Positions 46,827 through 56,692 of a stretch of 64,000 nt of DNA are shown in pieces (positions within the stretch are counted from its first letter, which is position 1; the number at the start of each line of letters is the position of its first letter). The translations under genes were made by a program, and so were the position numbers. The notes below the pieces were generated by a model, which was given only the letters and a program-made list of their open reading frames with translations, did no database searches and was not told the origin of the DNA. Source of the stretch: an uncultured Paracoccaceae bacterium (GTDB lineage: Bacteria > Pseudomonadota > Alphaproteobacteria > Rhodobacterales > Rhodobacteraceae); the NCBI GenBank assembly GCA_947500135.1, contig CANMQX010000010.1:1-64000 (forward strand), in the 5' to 3' direction.

Positions 46827-49424
46827 ATGACCACTTACGCACCCGCCACGATTGAGGCGAAATGGCAGGAAGCCTGGGCTGACGCGCAGACGTTCAAGGC
46901 CGTCCGCAGCAACGACAAGCCGAAGTATTACGTGCTTGAGATGTTCCCATACCCATCGGGCAAGCTTCACATGGGCCATGTGCGCAACTACACGATGGGC
47001 GACGTCATTGCCCGCTATAAGCTGGCAACGGGCCATAACATCCTGCACCCGATGGGCTGGGATGCGTTTGGGATGCCCGCCGAAAACGCGGCCATGGCGA
47101 CGGGCATTCACCCCAAGGATTATACCTACGGCAATATCGCCGATATGAAGGCGCAGATGGGTCCGCTGGGCCTGTCGATTGACTGGTCCCGAGAATTCGC
47201 CACCTGCGATCCGGACTATTACGGCCAGCAACAGGCCTTGTTCATTGATTTCCTGGCCAAGGGCCTGATTTATCGCAAGAAAGCCGTGGTGAACTGGGAC
47301 CCGATCGACATGACCGTGCTGGCCAATGAACAGGTGATCGACGGCAAAGGCTGGCGGTCCGGGGCCGAGGTTGAGCGGCGCGAACTGGTGCAATGGTTCT
47401 TCAAAATCAGCGACTATTCCGAAGAACTGCTGGAGGCGATTGATACGCTTGATAACTGGCCCGCCAAGGTCAAGCTGATGCAGGCCAACTGGATCGGTAA
47501 GTCCCGGGGACTACAATTCGCGTTTGAACGCACCGATGGCGGCGAGATTGAGGTGTATACCACACGCCCCGATACGCTGATGGGCGCATCATTTGTTGGT
47601 ATATCCCCTGATCACCCACTAGCCAAAGAGTTGGAAGCAACCAATCCCAAGGTCGCAACCTTCTGCGCAGAATGTCGCAAGGGCGGCACCACCGCTGAGG
47701 CTGTCGAAAAGGCGGAAAAGCTGGGATACAACACCGGTCTCACTGTGAGACATCCATTTGATGAATGCGATGACTTACCCATATTCATCGCCAACTTTAT
47801 CCTCATGGATTACGGCACCGGTGCAATTTTCGGCTGTCCGGCGCATGACCAGCGAGATTTGGATTTCGCACGAAAATATGGCTTGAAGGTTATCAACGTG
47901 TTCGAGCCCGACATGGGTCTACATGAAGGTTGGAAGGGGGAGCCTTCTGCCTACGAAACGCTTCCTAGTGAACACAATTCTATTCCGGCATTTGTTCCGC
48001 CAAAGTCGGATGAGGTGCGGTATCGGCTACCGATCGATGGACGCACTGCAATGCGGACCGGTAAAGAGGCTATAGAGACTGCCATCACCCATTGCGAAGC
48101 GATCGGCATCGGTCAGGGCGTTACGAAATACCGTCTGCGCGATTGGGGCTTAAGCCGCCAACGCTATTGGGGTACGCCGATCCCGGTTGTGCATTGTGAC
48201 GCTTGTGGCGTGGTTCCCGAGAAGAAGGAAAACCTGCCCGTCGAGCTGCCTTATGATGTCACCTTCGATATCCCGGGCAACCCATTGGATCGTCACCCGA
48301 CATGGCGCGATTGTGCCTGCCCGTCTTGCGGCACGCCTGCCAAGCGCGAAACCGACACGATGGACACGTTCGTGGATTCGTCATGGTATTTCGCGCGCTT
48401 CACGTCGCCCAATGCGGCGACGCCCACCAATGCGGATGACGCGGCCTATTGGATGAATGTGGACCAGTATATCGGCGGCATCGAACACGCGATCCTGCAC
48501 CTGCTGTATAGTCGATTCTTTGCCCGCGCGATGAATATGACAGGCCATTTGCCGCAAGGCACGTCAGAGCCGTTTAACGCCCTGTTCACCCAAGGCATGG
48601 TGACGCATGAGATCTACGTGACCCGGGACGAAAACGATCGCCCTGTCTATCACTTGCCAGAACATATCGAATGGACCGAAAGCGGTGCGCGGCTGGGGGC
48701 CACGGGTGAAGCTGTCGATGTGATCCCCTCTGCGAAAATGTCCAAGTCGAAAAAGAATGTCGTTGATCCCGATGACATCCTACAAAAATACGGGGCCGAC
48801 ACCGCCCGCTGGTTTGTCCTGTCCGATAGCCCGCCGGAACGCGACGTAGAATGGACGGCCTCGGGTGCCGAGGCCACGTTTAAACACCTGAACCGGGTTT
48901 GGACGCTGGCCGACCGTATTGCGGGAATGGATGACGCGCCCGGTCAAGGTGATGACGACCTGCTGCGCGCCATGCATCGCACCATCCATGACGTGACGCT
49001 GGCGGTTGAAACCTTTGGCTTTAACGCGGCCATTGCCAAGCTTTATGCCTTTACCGCAACGCTGCAGAAATCAAAGGCAGGCAAACCGACCAAAGTGCAG
49101 GCGGCCAAGGTGCTGGCACAGCTGATGTCACCCATGACACCGCATCTGTCCGAAGAGATCTGGACCCTGCATGGCGGCACCGGTCTGATCGCCAACGCGC
49201 CATGGCCCGTCGCGGATGAGGTGATGCTGGTTGAAGACACCGTAACCATGCCAATCCAAATCAACGGCAAACGCCGCGCTGAAATTCAAGTTGCGGCGGA
49301 TGCCAGCAAAGACGCGATTGAAGCCATGGCGATGGAAGTGGACGCAGTCCAGCGTGCGTTGGATGGTGGTCAGCCGAAAAAGTTGATTGTTGTGCCCGGG
49401 CGGATTGTGAACATTGTCATCTGA
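46827..49424 (+). CDS. leuS: Leucyl-tRNA synthetase
   Basis: An 865-residue class I synthetase that charges tRNA-Leu. The HIGH motif is [19 protein letters not shown], the KMSKS loop is [17 protein letters not shown]. The CP1 editing domain (about residues 225-420) contains the threonine-rich [13 protein letters not shown] and the conserved [18 protein letters not shown]. Codons from about 47500 to 48130, which cover CP1, are unlike the rest of the gene (ATA, CTA, AGA), which suggests recombination. The coding frame is intact throughout. Confidence 0.97.
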
Positions 49425-49902
49425 CCTGATCCCCCGCCGCGCAGCCCTGTTGGGTCTGCTCGCCGCCGTAGGCGGCTGCGGCTTCGCGCCGGTGCATCGT
49501 GATGGGGCATCGCTACAAGGTCAGATCGCATTTGACACGCCGGAAAGCGTGGCGGGTTTTCGGATGCGCGAACAGTTGGAAAAGCGGCTCGGTGCTGCAC
49601 AAAATGCGCGCTACATGCTGCGCGTGCGCCCGTCGGGCGGCAGCCGCGCCGGTGCGATCACGTCAGACGGCGACACGGTGCGGTTCAACGTCATTGGGAA
49701 CGCGACATGGCGCTTGCGTGACCTTCGCAACAATCAGGTGATCGACAGCGGCAAGGTCGAGAACTTTAGCAGCTATGCCGCGACCGGTTCGACCGTGGCC
49801 ACACAGGCGGCGGAAACCGACGCCAATGCCCGCCTGTCGGTCACCCTGGCCGATTTGATTGTCAGCCGCCTGCTGATCCTGTCCCCCAGATTGACCAAAT
49901 GA
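49414..49902 (+). CDS. lptE: LPS assembly lipoprotein LptE
   Basis: A 162-residue lipoprotein with an N-terminal signal ending in VGGC, the LptE partner of the LptD translocon that inserts lipopolysaccharide. The mature domain has the strand-helix pattern of LptE ([27 protein letters not shown]). TTG 49414 overlaps the leuS stop by 11 bases, and the stop overlaps holA by 4. The order leuS-lptE-holA is conserved across alphaproteobacteria and enterobacteria, which supports the call. Confidence 0.87.
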
Positions 49903-50921
49903 AGCTGACCGGGCAGGCAGCCACGGCTTACTTTCGCAAGCCTGACCCGACACATACCGGGCTTTTGATCTTTGGTGCCGACCCGATGCGCGTTGCCGCC
50001 AAACGGCAAGAGGCAATCGCCGCCCTTGTTGGCCCCCAGGGCGAGGAAGAGATGCGTCTGACCCGGATCAATGCTGCCGACCTGCGCAAGGATCCCGCCC
50101 TGCTGGACGACGCGATCAAGGCGCAAGGGTTCTTTCCCGGACACAGGGTCGCCTTTGTCGAAGATGCTACAGACGGGCTGTCAAAGCTGCTGGATGCCGC
50201 CTTGGGCGACTGGCAGGCGGGGGATGCGCAGGTTGTCGTCACCGCCGGTCAGCTGACCGCGAAATCCGCCCTGCGCAAGGTGTTTGAGGGGCACGGCAAT
50301 GCCGTCGCCATTGGCATTTATGACGATCCGCCCAGTATGGCCGATATCGAACAGACACTGGGCCAAGCCGGGATCATGCGGCCAGAGCGTGACGTGATGG
50401 ACATGCTGATGTCACTCGCAGGCAGCCTGGAACCAGGCGATTTCCGCCAGACAGTGGATAAGATCAGCCTGTATAAGCGCGGCGATGAAACGGTCCTGAC
50501 AGTCGCTGATGTTATGGCCTGTGCACCGCAATCAGCGGATGTTGATGTCGATGATGTGCTGGATGTCGTCACGCAAGGGCAAGCCGATCAATTGGGGCCG
50601 ACATTGCGCAACCTTTATGCCCAAGGGGTCACCCCAGTAACGCTGTGCATCGGGGCGATGCGGCATTTTCGGCGGTTGCATGTGGTGGCGTCTGATCCGG
50701 GCGGGCCTGGTGCAGGGGTCGGGCGGCTGCGGCCCCCCGTCTTTGGACCACGGCGGGACAAGATTGCGCGTCAGGCAGGCCATTGGGGGCGCGCACGGTT
50801 GGAACGGGCATTGACCGCATTGACGGATGTGGATTTGCAACTGCGTTCAGCCAGCACCGCACCACAAAGCGCGTTGATGGAACGCACCTTGATCAGACTG
50901 GCGATGATGGCGCGCCGCTAA
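49899..50921 (+). CDS. holA: DNA polymerase III delta subunit
   Basis: A 340-residue clamp-loader subunit (AAA+-like, without ATPase motifs) that opens the beta clamp. LLIFGADPMRVAAKRQE at the start and the C-terminal TLCIGAMRHFRRLHV region are family-like. ATGA overlap with lptE couples them. It is the last plus-strand gene of the DUF3576-leuS-lptE-holA cluster. Confidence 0.9.
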   Translation: MKLTGQAATAYFRKPDPTHTGLLIFGADPMRVAAKRQEAIAALVGPQGEEEMRLTRINAADLRKDPALLDDAIKAQGFFPGHRVAFVEDATDGLSKLLDAALGDWQAGDAQVVVTAGQLTAKSALRKVFEGHGNAVAIGIYDDPPSMADIEQTLGQAGIMRPERDVMDMLMSLAGSLEPGDFRQTVDKISLYKRGDETVLTVADVMACAPQSADVDVDDVLDVVTQGQADQLGPTLRNLYAQGVTPVTLCIGAMRHFRRLHVVASDPGGPGAGVGRLRPPVFGPRRDKIARQAGHWGRARLERALTALTDVDLQLRSASTAPQSALMERTLIRLAMMARR

Positions 50922-50926
50922 GGCGA

Positions 50927-51151
50927 TCAGTTGCTGGCGGCGGCCAGCGCCATGGCAAGAAACGCGCCCAGCAGAATGTAGCCACCATTTACAGAACCCT
51001 GTGGCGGATCAAATGGCACTTCGGGCGCTGCGGCCTCTGGTTCTTGGATAGGGGCAGCCAATCCACCAGCTTGCGCGGATTGACCCGCGATACAGATAAC
51101 GGCGGCAAGTGTTGTCGCTTTCAAAAAATGCACGGTAGACCTCGGTTTCAT
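50927..51151 (-). CDS. Small secreted single-pass protein (divergent paralogue)
   Basis: A 74-residue protein: signal peptide ending SAQAGG, a Pro/Glu linker (EPEAAAPEVPFDPPQGS) and a C-terminal hydrophobic helix (GGYILLGAFLAMALAAASN). The plan matches the two near-identical proteins upstream, although the sequence has diverged. GTG 51133, with AGGT six bases upstream, is an alternative start. Possibly a YjbE-like product of the exopolysaccharide locus. Confidence 0.65.
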   Translation of the reverse strand: MKPRSTVHFLKATTLAAVICIAGQSAQAGGLAAPIQEPEAAAPEVPFDPPQGSVNGGYILLGAFLAMALAAASN

Positions 51152-51247
51152 GGTGTCACTGGTTATTCATGGGTCATCGATATCAGAGTGGCAGACCCAT
51201 CACATATATATCGTAGCGGAGCACGTGTTCATGGTCCCGCATAAAAA

Positions 51248-51294
51248 ATCGGCCGGCAGAACACTGCCGGCCGATCATTTGTCATAACGACAAA
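51248..51294 (-). terminator. Double hairpin 3' of the second small protein
   Basis: Downstream of the 51298 gene (minus strand): a small stem TTTGTC/GACAAA at 51278-51294, then a perfect 12-bp GC-rich stem ATCGGCCGGCAG/CTGCCGGCCGAT at 51248-51275, followed by a run of six T. The larger one is a clear terminator. Confidence 0.85.
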
Positions 51295-51297
51295 TTC

Positions 51298-51510
51298 TTA
51301 GTCAGCTTCGTTGACAGCAGCTGCGATCAGCAGAGCGGCCAGAATACCAACGATCACGTATGTGCTGTTGATGGAAGAACCGGCAGGTGCGGGCTCTTCT
51401 ACGACGACGACTGGAGCTTCCATAACTTCTGGGGCCAGGCCACCAGCGTTAGCGGTGAAGCCAGAGATTGTCAGTGCAGCTGCAGCGGCAAGAGTTGTTG
51501 TAAGGCGCAT
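51298..51510 (-). CDS. Small secreted single-pass protein, copy B
   Basis: A 70-residue protein starting at MRLTTTLAAAAAL (ATG 51510, with AAAGGA correctly spaced; ATG 51516 is too close). Signal peptide ending NAGG, linker VVVVEEPAPAGSS and a C-terminal helix YVIVGILAALLIAAAVNEAD. The C-terminal half is identical to copy C. Proteins of this type are often mislabelled ferrochelatase in databases; there is no catalytic domain here. Confidence 0.82.
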   Translation of the reverse strand: MRLTTTLAAAAALTISGFTANAGGLAPEVMEAPVVVVEEPAPAGSSINSTYVIVGILAALLIAAAVNEAD

Positions 51511-51533
51511 GTTCATTTTCCTTTATTGCAAAA

Positions 51534-51575
51534 CGGCCGGTTCAAGCCGGCCGATTATTTATCTCGTAGCGAGAT
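51534..51575 (-). terminator. Double hairpin 3' of the third small protein
   Basis: On the minus strand after the 51580 stop: small stem ATCTCG-TAG-CGAGAT (51561-51575), then CGGCCGG/CCGGCCG (51534-51553) followed by TTTT. The layout repeats that at 51248-51294 with different stem sequences. Confidence 0.75.
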
Positions 51576-51579
51576 TCTT

Positions 51580-51792
51580 TTAGTCGGCTTCGTTCACGGC
51601 AGCTGCAATCAGCAGGGCTGCCAGAATACCAACAATGACGTAAGTGCTGTTGATCGAGGACCCAGCAGGTGCTGGTTCTTCCACAACAACAACTGGGGCA
51701 TCCATAACCGCAGGTTCAGGGTTACCAGCGTGTGCGGCAAAACCGGTGACGGCCAAAGCGGCGGCAGCGGCGAGCGTAGTAGTAAGGCGCAT
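51580..51792 (-). CDS. Small secreted single-pass protein, copy C
   Basis: A 70-residue protein starting at ATG 51792 after GGAGAACAG. Signal peptide (MRLTTTLAAAAALAVTGFAA, then HAG), linker and C-terminal hydrophobic helix. The last half (from VVVVEEP to NEAD) is identical to copy B, and the first 13 residues are too, so this is a recent tandem duplication. It is transcribed after yjbH-yjbF on the same strand. A YjbE-like role in exopolysaccharide is inferred from location. Confidence 0.82.
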   Translation of the reverse strand: MRLTTTLAAAAALAVTGFAAHAGNPEPAVMDAPVVVVEEPAPAGSSINSTYVIVGILAALLIAAAVNEAD

Positions 51793-51894
51793 ATCTGTTC
51801 TCCATTGATGCACGGGTGGACGTCGGCCAAAAGCCGCCCCACATTGGCGCATTAAATCAGCACATTAGGCAAAATCCAAGATACCTAGCGAAGT

Positions 51895-52554
51895 TTAGAA
51901 CATATCGATCTGAAGATATCCCGCCTGTGGCGAGATCGCTTGCAAGCTGCGAATTATATGTCCAGCGCCATTTACCCAATAAACATTGGTGAATTGCAGG
52001 CCTTCGCTTGCGCATTTCTCTTCAAAACGCGTCGTATTTTGCTTTGTTTTCAGCCTTTCAATGGTTTCCGCCCCCTGAGAAACGATGCGGCACTGCAACA
52101 GTTCAGTCGAAATTCGGTCCATATTGGTCAGAAATTCATGCCTACGTCGTGCTTCTCCGCCGCCTGAGCGGATCGCCGCCGAGACTTCAGAGACATCCGC
52201 TGCCATCAAATCACGCACCAGACCGCGCGTGGCCACAACGATCCCGTTTTCGAATGTGATGCTGACACTGGCGCTATCGACCCATGTCGACCGGTTGCCA
52301 TTGCTGCCGGACTGCACATTGGTGTCCCAACGGTCCAGATTGCGGGTAAACACCCGGATATATTTGCCCGGCTCTGAAACAACCTGCTCGCGCGTGATTG
52401 ATGCGGCAGGCGCGGGTGCCTCTGCAGCGCCCTTGCCAAGGCCCAGCAAGGCGCCGCCAAGCTGGCTGAACGTGTTGTTCTTGGCCATTGGGCCGCATGC
52501 GGTAACGCCTGTCAGTGCCAGCCCCAGGATTATCAGTCTTGTGTATTTCATCAT
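51895..52554 (-). CDS. YjbF family lipoprotein
   Basis: A 219-residue lipoprotein with a lipobox TGVTAC. The C-terminal half (CRIVSQGAETIERL, LQFTNVYWVNGAGHIIRSLQ) matches YjbF/GfcB proteins of the yjbEFGH / group 4 capsule systems, which act in polysaccharide secretion at the cell surface. ATG 52554 overlaps the yjbH stop by 4 bases, so they are coupled. Its membership of the family is firm. The polysaccharide exported is unknown. Confidence 0.87.
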   Translation of the reverse strand: MMKYTRLIILGLALTGVTACGPMAKNNTFSQLGGALLGLGKGAAEAPAPAASITREQVVSEPGKYIRVFTRNLDRWDTNVQSGSNGNRSTWVDSASVSITFENGIVVATRGLVRDLMAADVSEVSAAIRSGGGEARRRHEFLTNMDRISTELLQCRIVSQGAETIERLKTKQNTTRFEEKCASEGLQFTNVYWVNGAGHIIRSLQAISPQAGYLQIDMF

Positions 52555-54680
52555 CGCCAGAACCGCCCCCATGTATCCGACAGGTCCGCCTTGTGCCCGC
52601 CGCGGATGACATCATAAAGCCTGCCATCAACCGACAAGCGCGCACCGCCATCCCCGACACGAGTCCGAAACGTGTTGCTGTAGCTGCCCCGCGATGCGGA
52701 CCCGGTAAAATAATCCTGTGGGATCGAAATGCTGACGCCCTTGTTATAGGATCCGGACCCGAAATCATCATAGGACATGTCGGTCTGGGTCACATAGGCC
52801 CCGATCACCCAGCCATTGTCGAATTCCCGATCCACCGAAAGGGTCGCACCCCAATCGCCCGCCAGATACCGCCCCACATCAAGCTGCGTGTGATATCCGT
52901 TGCCAAGGTCGTAATAGGCGGACAGGTGGCCAGTTGTGACGTCATAGTCATATTCGTCAAAACCGAACCGCATATCCGAATCCCGCTGTGCGACCTGGCT
53001 CAACTCCAATCCCAACCCAAACCGGCTTTCGACCGGCTTCCACAACAATTCGCCCGACACACCGCCGAACATCCGTTCCAGGTAGCCAACGCTGACGCGG
53101 CCATACAGGTCCTGCCCGGGGCGGGAATAATGGGTCAGCGACAGACGCTGCAGCACTGGCACCCCGTCATTGCCATAACGGCTGCCATCGGATCGCACGT
53201 TCTGAATATCCGGCGTCCGTTCGGTGCCGGTCGGGTCATCATCGGGCGGCAACAGGCTTTGGTCGATTGCGCCGGACAGGACCAGATTGGGTTGGATGCG
53301 GTAGACACCCTGCAACCGCAGCCCAAGATCGACATTGACCGATCCATCGCCTGTAAAGGGATTAATCCGGAAGTATGGACCAAGCCCCCATGCAAACGGG
53401 CTGCTTTCACGTTCCAGACTGACCAGACCGTCAGAGCCGCCCGCATCACCAAAACCAGACCGCTGACGGATCGCCTCGGTCCCACCGGCGCGGTTTTCCA
53501 ACTGCTCCAGATCGCTACGGGCGATGCTGATCGCCGATACCGGGATACCCCGGCGTTCGGATTCCAGAATGAAGGTTTCGATCGATGGCGGCATGATCTG
53601 GGTCATCATCCGCGCGGCACGACCCGCCGCCTGCGCATCCGACCGGTAGCGGTTGTTGATGTAACGGACCCGTGCCGTGCGGTCTGTCAGTTCCAGCCCG
53701 GTCAGGGTCAGGTTTTCAAGCTTCAGCAACCCGCGCAACGCATTGCGAAGGGCTGCATCAGGCAAGGCCTGCCTGTCCCAGCTTTGCGCCGCCCGCGCGT
53801 CTGCTGCCCGCACCTTGACCGGTGGTGGCGCCTTTTCCAGACCGCTGCCACTTGCCCGTTCATTGGGATCCAGCGTAAAGCTGCCCGAGATGCCAATCTG
53901 CGAGCCATAAAGATATGACAATCCCAGCTGGATACCTGGACGGGGCCGGTAGGTCAGCCCGTAGTTAAAGGGCGATTCCACCGGCACGGCGACACCGCCT
54001 GCCACCTCAGGATATTCACTGGATGAATATTCAAGCTTCGCGCCCCAGCGGTCATTGATCTGATATTCAACACCGCCAAAGAATGCCGCATCGCCCCGGA
54101 ACCAGTCACTGGATGCCAATTGGCCATCCGGGTCCGACCCGTCATAGCCGTCGCGATCTGTCAGACCACTGCCAAGCGGATTGTCAAACCCGTCCCGCGT
54201 GCCTAGCGCACCCCAGCCAAGCCCAGCAGTCACAATCAGATTGTCCCCAATGGATTTGGAGGCAACCACATATTCAGACTGGAAACGACCGGGTGTCAGA
54301 AAATCGCGCAAGCCGATGGCGACGGCGGGCAAATACTCTGTTTCATTGTTCAACCGGTACTGCAGATCAAACCCGCGCTCGATGTCACTATCCGTGCCAG
54401 AGCTTGGCGGATCCTCATACAGATCCACATTGGCGTAACGATAGCTGAGCGACAAACGCTGGCTTGCCTGAAAGTTCAAGGTGACGCGCGCCAAACCGTC
54501 GGTATAGGCGATTGTGGCGGCAAAGCTGTCTTCAGGCGCGCCTTGCGCTGTTGGCATTTCCAGCAAACCGGGTGTGCCAAAATGCGAATAGGTGGCAGTC
54601 AGGTCCTGACCTGTGGCACCGCTTGCAATCGTGACCGACATAGCGGCAACTGATGACATCAGGCGATTGCTTTTGGGCAT
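52551..54680 (-). CDS. YjbH-type outer-membrane protein
   Basis: A 709-residue outer-membrane protein of the YjbH/GfcD family. A signal peptide ends in GATG. The mature part shows two blocks of beta-strands: YSHFGTPGLLEMPTAQGAPE at the start is the family's opening motif, and VDGRLYDVIRGGHKADLSDT with WGRFWR at the end is its closing one. ATG 54680 follows AGGGAG; TTG 54698 is the alternative. YjbH proteins are predicted barrels working with YjbF in exopolysaccharide export. No yjbG is visible. Confidence 0.88.
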   Translation of the reverse strand: MPKSNRLMSSVAAMSVTIASGATGQDLTATYSHFGTPGLLEMPTAQGAPEDSFAATIAYTDGLARVTLNFQASQRLSLSYRYANVDLYEDPPSSGTDSDIERGFDLQYRLNNETEYLPAVAIGLRDFLTPGRFQSEYVVASKSIGDNLIVTAGLGWGALGTRDGFDNPLGSGLTDRDGYDGSDPDGQLASSDWFRGDAAFFGGVEYQINDRWGAKLEYSSSEYPEVAGGVAVPVESPFNYGLTYRPRPGIQLGLSYLYGSQIGISGSFTLDPNERASGSGLEKAPPPVKVRAADARAAQSWDRQALPDAALRNALRGLLKLENLTLTGLELTDRTARVRYINNRYRSDAQAAGRAARMMTQIMPPSIETFILESERRGIPVSAISIARSDLEQLENRAGGTEAIRQRSGFGDAGGSDGLVSLERESSPFAWGLGPYFRINPFTGDGSVNVDLGLRLQGVYRIQPNLVLSGAIDQSLLPPDDDPTGTERTPDIQNVRSDGSRYGNDGVPVLQRLSLTHYSRPGQDLYGRVSVGYLERMFGGVSGELLWKPVESRFGLGLELSQVAQRDSDMRFGFDEYDYDVTTGHLSAYYDLGNGYHTQLDVGRYLAGDWGATLSVDREFDNGWVIGAYVTQTDMSYDDFGSGSYNKGVSISIPQDYFTGSASRGSYSNTFRTRVGDGGARLSVDGRLYDVIRGGHKADLSDTWGRFWR

Positions 54681-54794
54681 AACATGCTCCCTCTTCAACG
54701 CATTCCCTCTTGTCTATCCTGTGCCGCCGGCTTTGGGAATCCCGAAATACAGGGGGTAAAAAAGGGCCATTTCAAGGCATTTTAGTCACACGCT

Positions 54795-55547
54795 ATGCGT
54801 GTAAACCAATTGTTAACCTTCTTATTCTCAATTCGGCGCATGTTAGTATCACATCGTAACAAGTTCATCGTGTTTGAAGATCCATTGGGCGCATGCCCAT
54901 GGATCGCACGATCCCTTCAACCCTGGCTTGATCAGCCCATTATGTCCGATATTGCCCGGGTTGCCGAAACCTCGTTTTTCAACGGTATGTCGCCGGGCGA
55001 GGCCGAGCTTGCTTTTGACATGCACGGCCTCGTCTTTCGCGATTACACCCGTATCGCGATTGTTCGGAACCCCTATGCCAAGATGGCCCAGCTTTACTAC
55101 CGGATCGCCATGACCGACCCGGTCTGGCGCATGCGGCAGCATCTGGGCCTCAGCCTGCCCCAATTTGGCACATGGCTGCGGCAGACCCGCAACAGCGGCA
55201 GGGGCGCGGGTTATTTTAATGGCACGCGGTGGCGCAAATTCGGGGCCTGGTCGGCTGATGCATGGTGCGGTGACGCCATCACCCATACCGTCCGGGCAAG
55301 CCATGCGGTCGCTGATCTGAACCGCATTTTCGAAGGTCTGGGCATCGCACCTGCCTTTGGCCATCGCCGGGTTCATGAGTTGGGCGTTCAACGTCTATCC
55401 CGGTTATATGACAATAAAAGCAATATGTTGATCCGGGAACGGTATCAATCGGACCTTAAACTGCTTAAGGGTGAAACTACCCATCTGCACCTTGTTCCAA
55501 CCCGTCCGTCCCGTCCCGCATTGCTGCCTTACAAATCCGTCGCATAG
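54795..55547 (+). CDS. Sulfotransferase-like protein with a changed 5' loop
   Basis: A 250-residue protein resembling family 2 membrane sulfotransferases. The 3'-phosphate motif is good (YTRIAIVRNPYAKMAQLYYR, about residues 82-101), but the usual PKTGGTS loop near residue 30 reads EDPLGACPWIARSL, with the catalytic basic residue missing. It may be inactive or use a different mechanism. Divergent from yjbH, which suggests a role in the same polysaccharide. It overlaps the convergent flavoprotein by 19 bases. Confidence 0.65.
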   Translation: MRVNQLLTFLFSIRRMLVSHRNKFIVFEDPLGACPWIARSLQPWLDQPIMSDIARVAETSFFNGMSPGEAELAFDMHGLVFRDYTRIAIVRNPYAKMAQLYYRIAMTDPVWRMRQHLGLSLPQFGTWLRQTRNSGRGAGYFNGTRWRKFGAWSADAWCGDAITHTVRASHAVADLNRIFEGLGIAPAFGHRRVHELGVQRLSRLYDNKSNMLIRERYQSDLKLLKGETTHLHLVPTRPSRPALLPYKSVA

Positions 55548-56692
55548 CGCGCAGCGGACAGACCTGCCAAGCGCCCCGTCGCCAGACATCCCGTGATCAG
55601 GTAGCCCCCGGTTGGGGCCTCCCAATCCAGCATTTCGCCTGCGCAGAACACGCCTGGACGCGCCCGCAACATCAGATCATCCGTCAACGCATCAAACCGC
55701 AGACCGCCTGCGGTCGATATCGCCTCATCCATCGGACGCGGACCTGCATGCCGGATCGGCAACGCTTTGATTAGCGGGGCAAGGTCATCGGGATAGGGTC
55801 GCCCAAACTCGGCCAGCAGCGCCAGACGTAGCGGATCAAGCCGCAAAACCTTGCGCAGATGATTGGACAGGCTGGTCTTGCCGCGTGGCTTTTGCAGGGC
55901 CGCGCGGACCCGATCCAACGGCCAATCGGGTCGCAAATCCATGGTCAATTCCGCCCCGTTCCGCACCGCCCGCGACACGGCATAAACGCCGCCGCCCTCT
56001 ATCCCCTTTTTGGAAACAATACACTCTCCGCGTGAGTATTGATGCCCTGATTGCAGGGCGACAGACTTGATCGGCGCGCCCAGAAATCGGGTCATGTGAT
56101 CCGACCACTGCACGACGAAACCCATATTGGCGGGGGCAAACCGGGTGACCGCGTCGGAAAGGTGCCCTGCCCACGCACCGTCAGACCCAAGCCGCGCCCA
56201 ACTGGCACCCCCAAGGGAAAGCACAGTCACCTTCGGCGTTAGTATCTGCAGCCCACCCATCGTATCAAACTGCAGCACGCCGTCGGTCCAGCCTTGCCAC
56301 CGCCAGCGGGTGCGCAAGGTCACGCCCGTCGCACCCAACCGCGCCAGCCATGCCCGCAGCAAGGGCGAGGCCTTCATCGCTTTGGGAAATACCCGACCGG
56401 TAGAGCCACTGAACAAGGGCTGATCTAAACCCGGCGCCCAGTCCATGACGGCATCCGGGCCAAAAGCCCGCAAGGCCGTGGCCATCGGCGCCGGCACGTC
56501 GCCATAGGCCGACAGAAACGCCTCAATCGGTTCATCCTTGGTCAGGTTCAGCCCCGATTTACCCGCCATCAGAAATTTGCGGCCCACCGACGGCATTGCG
56601 TCGGCGACAGTGACAGACAGGCCACGCGCGGCCATGACTTCTGCCGCCATCAACCCGGCAGGCCCAGCCCCGATGACCAGCGCATCGGTCAC
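55529..56692 (-). CDS. HI0933/YhiN-family FAD oxidoreductase
   Basis: A 387-residue flavoprotein of the HI0933 (BaiN-like) family: Rossmann motif VIGAGPAGLMAAEVMAARGL, then VGRKFLMAGKSGLNLT, typical of the group. The C-terminal FCAGEMLDWEAPTGGYLI matches the FAD-binding end. The substrate is unknown; BaiN relatives act on bile-acid-like compounds. The ATG overlaps the MscS stop by four bases, and it is the last gene of a four-gene operon. Confidence 0.88.
   Translation of the reverse strand: MTDALVIGAGPAGLMAAEVMAARGLSVTVADAMPSVGRKFLMAGKSGLNLTKDEPIEAFLSAYGDVPAPMATALRAFGPDAVMDWAPGLDQPLFSGSTGRVFPKAMKASPLLRAWLARLGATGVTLRTRWRWQGWTDGVLQFDTMGGLQILTPKVTVLSLGGASWARLGSDGAWAGHLSDAVTRFAPANMGFVVQWSDHMTRFLGAPIKSVALQSGHQYSRGECIVSKKGIEGGGVYAVSRAVRNGAELTMDLRPDWPLDRVRAALQKPRGKTSLSNHLRKVLRLDPLRLALLAEFGRPYPDDLAPLIKALPIRHAGPRPMDEAISTAGGLRFDALTDDLMLRARPGVFCAGEMLDWEAPTGGYLITGCLATGRLAGLSAARYATDL

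Follow-up and report, generated by a model that had tools for sequence, protein, structure and literature searches.

We analysed a stretch of 64,000 nucleotides (hereafter the window) from an uncultured Paracoccaceae bacterium, positions 1 to 64,000 of contig CANMQX010000010.1, and focused on a predicted exopolysaccharide locus, yjbF/yjbH, on its minus strand and on the three small open reading frames (ORFs) that follow it. The gene yjbH (52551-54680, with an ATG start at 54680) encodes an outer-membrane polysaccharide export protein of the GfcD family (PF06082, expect value (E) 8.1e-182, residues 30-693), and yjbF/gfcB (51895-52551) encodes a lipoprotein (PF11102, E 2e-27) with a lipobox-like motif, LTGVTAC, read from the sequence. 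The start of yjbF and the stop of yjbH share one base, in agreement with the coupling noted in the original prediction. The small ORFs lie on the same strand, as had also been described, at 51580-51792 (copy 1, 70 amino acids), 51298-51510 (copy 2, 70 amino acids) and 50927-51151 (copy 3, 74 amino acids). Copy 3 is convergent with holA (DNA polymerase III delta, 49899-50921, plus strand), a conserved neighbour that marks the site. We found that these ORFs belong to a multi-copy family that occupies a conserved site by holA, has been under long-term purifying selection and persists where yjbFH is missing.

Each of the three ORFs encodes a predicted signal peptide, an acidic Pro/Val-rich linker and one C-terminal helix, ending in the tail NEAD in copies 1 and 2 and SN in copy 3. 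Signal cleavage and helix ends were set by hydropathy and a signal-peptide heuristic, and a single-sequence AlphaFold2 model of modest confidence (mean predicted local distance difference test score 70.7, predicted template modelling score 0.35) contains only two helices, at residues 2-22 (signal) and 49-69 (C-terminal); the earlier description of secreted single-helix proteins is thus a prediction. Regarding family searches, the three proteins matched no Pfam family at E<=1, including PF11106 (YjbE), which did recognise E. coli YjbE (5e-33) and a protein of locus L193 (1.2e-33). No family of Pfam, NCBIfam or PHROGs was found above its curated cut-off or at E<=0.01, and matches to Psb34 and to PHROGs were set aside as weak.

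Copies 1 and 2 are 86% identical, with identical C-terminal halves, and copy 3 is a divergent member, 40% identical to copy 2 in the alignment, which the final profile described below recovers at E 3.6e-11. Copy 1 is conserved at the holA site of the window's genus, and three members, with counterparts of copy 3, are also present at that site in L218, L219, L220 and L222. The identical halves had been taken as a sign of recent duplication. The identity is real but the recency is not, because the synonymous divergence (dS) between copies 1 and 2 is 1.29, with a nonsynonymous divergence (dN) of 0.08, and we therefore rejected a recent duplication. Over the last 37 codons, with their 31 synonymous sites, the copies show 19 synonymous differences and not one nonsynonymous, which points to purifying selection on the linker and helix instead.

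In the window's genus the small family was found in all 56 genomes and YjbH in 46 of them; the distance comparison within the genus used 74 of 78 YjbH rows (four N-terminal halves of split matches were dropped) and at least 150 small-protein rows. We fetched 29 genus loci (L218-L246, one per genome), where the informative results are only the absence of yjbFH, the gene stumps and the signal of selection. All 29 adjoin holA. At 17 of them yjbF follows the small gene, and at the 12 without yjbFH an HI0933-type gene lies within 0.7-1.4 kb of holA; in the window the corresponding flavoprotein gene is found beyond yjbH (55529-56692, minus strand). Five of these 12 loci have another ORF between the small gene and the HI0933-type gene, which is glutathione S-transferase-like (by eye) in L235, L236, L239 and L242, all of clade B, and sulfotransferase-like in L246. 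In the same four clade B loci a C-terminal piece of YjbF, approximately residues 193-220 of 224, stands just before the small gene, with best E values of 5e-6 (L239), 1e-5 (L236), 6e-4 (L235) and 0.003 (L242), one reversed-sequence match being obtained at 0.045. As this stump is present in four of the four clade B loci without yjbFH, we conclude that yjbFH was lost there. No stump was found in the other eight loci without yjbFH or in L015. Mapped on a 40-row HolA tree, the presence or absence of yjbFH at the site requires at least three changes of state.

The small gene evolves under purifying selection where yjbFH is missing, and its ratio of nonsynonymous to synonymous differences per site (pN/pS) is no higher there than beside yjbFH: it was 0.234 in clade A (seven rows) and 0.116 in clade B (four rows), both without yjbFH, and 0.308 in 18 rows with yjbFH, the pairs behind these ratios being not independent. 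Nine of the ten genus genomes without YjbH are also without YjbF, and four of these nine, which are 99-100% complete (G585, G606, G617 and G618), carry the small family, no YjbH or YjbF having been found in them. Some genomes of the genus, such as G566, G574, G608 and G595, have a divergent YjbH subtype, which scores around 265-290 bits versus 560-730 for the usual full-length proteins.

Across 149 genomes of the family, the window protein has 124 family-level matches in 94 genomes. Of these matches 21, in 15 genomes, lie within 5 kb of YjbH, where 0.28 would be expected by chance, and for the other 103 no YjbH lies within 5 kb on the same contig. The original prediction tied the family to yjbFH and this largely does not hold, since its members occur mostly away from those genes. 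The ferrochelatase gene hemH is within 5 kb of 78 matches, in 71 genomes, and 25 matches are near neither hemH nor YjbH; these distances were counted with 143 of 150 ferrochelatase rows (seven partial, weak or second rows were dropped) and an assumed mean genome of 3.8 Mb. The relatives adjacent to hemH (most of L022-L043) are thus found in 71 of the 94 genomes with matches, and some of them are misnamed ferrochelatase. In the window genome itself no small-family member was found near hemH, and two more members, at C4:259911 (65%) and C2:193967 (39%), are far from both of its YjbH genes. A second site in the genus adjoins an lldD-like gene in 10 of 12 fetched stretches, the other two having been chosen for other reasons. 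Among the matches listed, this site (L315-L322, L324 and L326) has one to four copies, often in tandem and with acidic tails, and no YjbH within 3 kb.

Regarding the association with yjbFH, we scanned the flanks of 101 YjbH places, 100 of them in other genomes (L074-L172 and L047) and one being the second pair of the window genome (L014); six of 108 YjbH places were left out (G004, G120:C1, G044, G098, G049 and G078). The scan covered all frames and retained short ORFs that begin like a signal peptide and have a single hydrophobic helix at the C-terminus. Such ORFs on the same strand peak 500-1000 bp past yjbH at 0.51 per kb, against a background near 0.02 per kb in the 4 kb that precede the end of yjbH, a stretch that includes yjbH itself. 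The opposite strand has a smaller peak of 0.16 per kb, versus 0-0.10 in the other bins outside 500-2500 bp. With the strict signal-plus-helix scan, 51 of the 101 loci have a match at 450-2200 bp; relaxed inspection by eye added several positive loci, and in the remainder such an ORF is missing or lies outside the zone. Outside the family, by eye and within 1.5 kb either side, a protein of this type was found at 11 of 15 YjbF loci of the class and at 8 of 17 of the phylum, and in E. coli the corresponding small protein is YjbE or GfcA, upstream of yjbF/gfcB. The multiplication seen in the window also recurs, with two or three tandem copies at other yjbFH loci.

Starting from 41 small proteins found at genus loci, we iterated a profile search against 8,068 ORFs and the same number of reversed decoys, which are an incomplete control for the order of a signal peptide. 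It gave 80 matches at E<1e-3 and no reversed decoy at that level (two were below 0.1). Of the 66 matches at loci of the same family, 59, from 50 loci, fall 0.6-2.3 kb past yjbH; 43 of these share its strand and 16 are on the opposite one. The 14 remaining matches are from outside the family; E. coli YjbE is among them, at E 2.3e-4, and was reached after the profile had taken in enterobacterial relatives. In a control set of 1,192 ORFs (the window, L009-L011, L014, L173 and L174) only family members and YjbE fell below 1e-3. In a named set of 67 YjbH loci, of which 17 share an exact 200-mer with loci used earlier, 60 of 63 profile matches were in the zone, in 49 loci, and no decoy was below 1e-3. 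Restricting this set to the 50 loci not used earlier left 34 of 37 matches in the zone, in 32 loci, and each of the 20 holA-linked loci among them has a zone match.

These proteins are short and biased in composition, no Pfam match exists for the window proteins and E. coli GfcA was not reached, and it might be thought that a signal peptide followed by an Ala-rich helix arose many times, the profile link to YjbE being a convergence. We consider this rather unlikely. Besides the decoys and the 1,192-ORF control, the concentration of the matches in a single 1.7-kb zone argues against it, as do the intermediates L090, L082 and L076, in which an N-terminus of the window type is joined to a Thr/Ser tail. 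The view that the small proteins are counterparts of YjbE is partly supported, by the peak past yjbF and by the profile match, but a dedicated role is not, because the gene persists without yjbFH.

Such a role was implied in the original prediction, in which the small proteins would serve the YjbFH exporter exclusively as YjbE-type subunits, with extra copies for the sake of dosage or polymer structure. The adjacency is certainly old. In other genera, eight of eight holA-linked YjbH loci carry the small gene between yjbF and holA, and in the named set all 34 holA-linked yjbFH loci have a zone match, 33 of them strictly between both genes; therefore, the joint arrangement looks ancestral. The tandem copies at several yjbFH loci and the profile link to YjbE would also fit. 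Nevertheless, the gene is kept under selection where yjbFH is gone and is carried by genomes without detected YjbF or YjbH, most family-level matches are distant from YjbH, and the second genus site by the lldD-like gene has no yjbFH nearby, and we regard dedicated subunits as unlikely.

We give still less credit to the proposal that the small gene is a feature of the holA site, unrelated to a yjbFH pair that merely adjoins it. All the fetched genus loci adjoin holA, with or without yjbFH, as this proposal would have it, but 42 of the 50 family-set YjbH loci with a zone match have no holA in the fetched stretch, and this is also the case for 15 of 49 in the named set. Furthermore, yjbF is accompanied by small exported ORFs in other families too, and in E. 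coli.

Regarding the tails, we surveyed runs of four Ser/Thr residues after the helix; the largest group contributed 48 usable proteins out of 54, and the divergent third copies of L221 and L222 were left out. Among relatives outside the family, E. coli included, 12 of 14 have such a run, as do 24 of 48 proteins at the other yjbFH loci of the same family. The run is present in 1 of 12 holA-linked proteins of other genera and in none of 22 at the lldD-like site; of the 45 proteins at the genus holA site (30 from loci with yjbFH, 15 from loci without), one has it. The median tail of the 45 genus holA-site proteins is 4 residues with yjbFH and 2 without, 44 of them have no Lys or Arg in the mature part, and their helix is more hydrophobic (medians 3.04 and 2.94 versus 2.51-2.63). 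The third small ORF of L245 (L245:2032-2256), where yjbFH is missing from the holA site, has a short run of Ser/Thr at its end and is an exception to the loss of the tail. As the tail was lost in the same lineage that dispenses with yjbFH, the tail rather than the helix may be what ties YjbE/GfcA-like proteins to the exporter. Very improbable, in our opinion, is a carrier role, in which the small protein would become glycosylated with the polymer and YjbF would pass the protein to YjbH to be displayed (compare Larson et al., PMC8592465, where GfcA might be modified by O-antigens and directed to GfcD, and where the fold of GfcB is likened to the LolA chaperone), because, although a Thr/Ser tail is common on relatives and the few Ser/Thr that remain before the helix might still be glycosylated, the tail is gone in the window lineage and the gene persists without YjbF or YjbH.

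We therefore favour, with moderate confidence, the reading that the three ORFs are divergent YjbE/GfcA-like single-helix envelope proteins that lost the Thr/Ser tail and work without YjbFH, their biochemical role being inferred. The protein would be exported by Sec and its signal peptide cleaved after A-x-A, leaving around 48 residues without Lys or Arg. The strongly hydrophobic Ala/Leu helix, with the core G-[VI]-L-A-A-L-L-I-A-A-A, would stay in the membrane, probably the inner one, and its face of small residues may pack with itself or with partners. A homo-oligomer formed in this way could serve the organisation of the envelope or of the polymer surface. Beside yjbFH the small protein would probably be a YjbE-type accessory of the exporter, and its core function would need neither YjbF nor YjbH.

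Several points weigh against this reading. Location, topology, oligomerisation and function are deduced from the sequence and not observed directly, and the proposed link to YjbE depends on profile iteration with proteins that are short, rich in Ala and of low complexity, starting from proteins with no Pfam match; the iterated profile does not reach E. coli GfcA (E 1.4). About half of the YjbH loci have no zone match (50 of 101 are positive), and not all the zone matches can share the yjbH transcript, since 16 of the 59 are opposite to it. The 29 genus loci were fetched by match to the small gene, so that its retention there is given by construction, and for draft genomes an absence means that no match passed the threshold applied. 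Furthermore, several genomes without yjbFH at the site have a YjbH elsewhere, and for them an action in trans could apply.

More tentatively, and with somewhat less confidence than we give to the nature of the three proteins, we suggest that a YjbE/GfcA-like lineage shed its Thr/Ser tail, became independent of YjbFH and spread in the Rhodobacteraceae as a general multi-copy envelope protein, at the holA, lldD-like and hemH sites. If this were true, what is conserved in function across the wider YjbE/GfcA group would reside in the helix rather than in the exporter. The species that lost yjbFH and keep the small gene, some of them with a yjbF stump, are a natural test of a function without the exporter. 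Unannotated small proteins at yjbFH, holA, lldD-like and hemH loci are in any case joined here into one family, for which we found no published description in a limited search of open-licence papers, one not directed at the members adjacent to hemH.

Regarding the other features of the locus, an lptE-like gene (49414-49902, plus strand) is a further conserved neighbour. The names holA, lptE-like and HI0933-type are provisional assignments, and holA was followed by tblastn synteny. A terminator-like hairpin (51247-51276, minus strand; 13 pairs, then TTTT) lies 3' of copy 2, and copies 1 and 2 are separated by a GC-rich inverted repeat of eight pairs (51534-51553) that looks terminator-like only when the plus strand is scored. 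In 50700-55000 there are eight terminator-like sites versus 4.4 (standard deviation 2.4) in shuffles, which is not proof of terminators, and one promoter-like site, upstream of yjbH (54967-54939), where shuffles give 2.4. We weighed a separate transcription of the small genes, in view of the one good hairpin after copy 2, but the terminator count is not clearly above that of the shuffles. Divergent from yjbH there is a sulfotransferase-like ORF (54795-55547, named by eye), whose product could modify the exported polymer; a relative was found in 1 of the 29 genus loci (L246), the short flanks often ending before that position. A search of solved structures with YjbF gave weak matches to BamE, FliG and 30kLP (best E 0.055), which were not used.

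The nearest YjbH records are 98% identical, in an uncultured isolate, and 70% identical, in Yoonia sediminilitoris, and by these records the host is a Yoonia-type member of the Rhodobacteraceae. The same genome has a second YjbHF pair on contig C5 (L014:6462-9154), which sits in an apparent polysaccharide gene cluster, its genes being named by eye. Around 4.6 kb from this pair, on the same strand, there is a small exported ORF with a C...C core (L014:13742-14029; final profile E 0.92).

Among the known systems, yjbEFGH and gfcABCD of E. coli share the hallmark of YjbF together with YjbH, and both proteins are present in the window. No GfcC/YjbG (PF06251) was found by profile search in the whole genome, in agreement with the original prediction, nor in any of the 149 family genomes, the E. 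coli positive control being detected; therefore, the lack of yjbG is a trait of the family and not peculiar to this locus, and a YjbF/YjbH pair without GfcC is of a known kind. E. coli YjbE (PF11106) is, like the window proteins, small, with a signal peptide and one C-terminal hydrophobic stretch, and adjoins yjbF. In contrast to YjbE, the window proteins have no PF11106 match and no Thr or Thr/Ser-rich tail, and on these two grounds they are not filed as YjbE; their genes also follow yjbF instead of coming first, no yjbG accompanies them and they persist without yjbFH. An insertion of IS1 between yjbE and yjbF in E. coli led to sedimentation resistance and, in a preliminary characterization, to overproduction of colanic acid (PMC8117528).

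GfcA of the group 4 capsule operon gfcABCD has the same layout of signal peptide, hydrophobic helix and polar tail, and is a companion of gfcB and gfcD. It differs in being beyond the reach of our profile and in its 30% Thr, as given by Larson et al. (PMC8592465), who state that GfcA may be an inner-membrane or a secreted protein; its signal peptide was predicted in silico (PMC10278209). In Fruet et al. (PMC11494523) GfcD is modelled as the exporter of a lipid-anchored polymer and GfcA is called entirely uncharacterized. The small proteins adjacent to hemH in the Rhodobacteraceae are direct matches of the window protein, with the same Val-rich linker and helix, but adjoin ferrochelatase and not yjbFH. 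Thus, the earlier observation is partly confirmed and its interpretation partly supported, and to speak of a small-protein family instead of yjbE was misleading, since the small proteins are themselves YjbE-like: judged by their sequences, they are probably distant kin of YjbE and GfcA.

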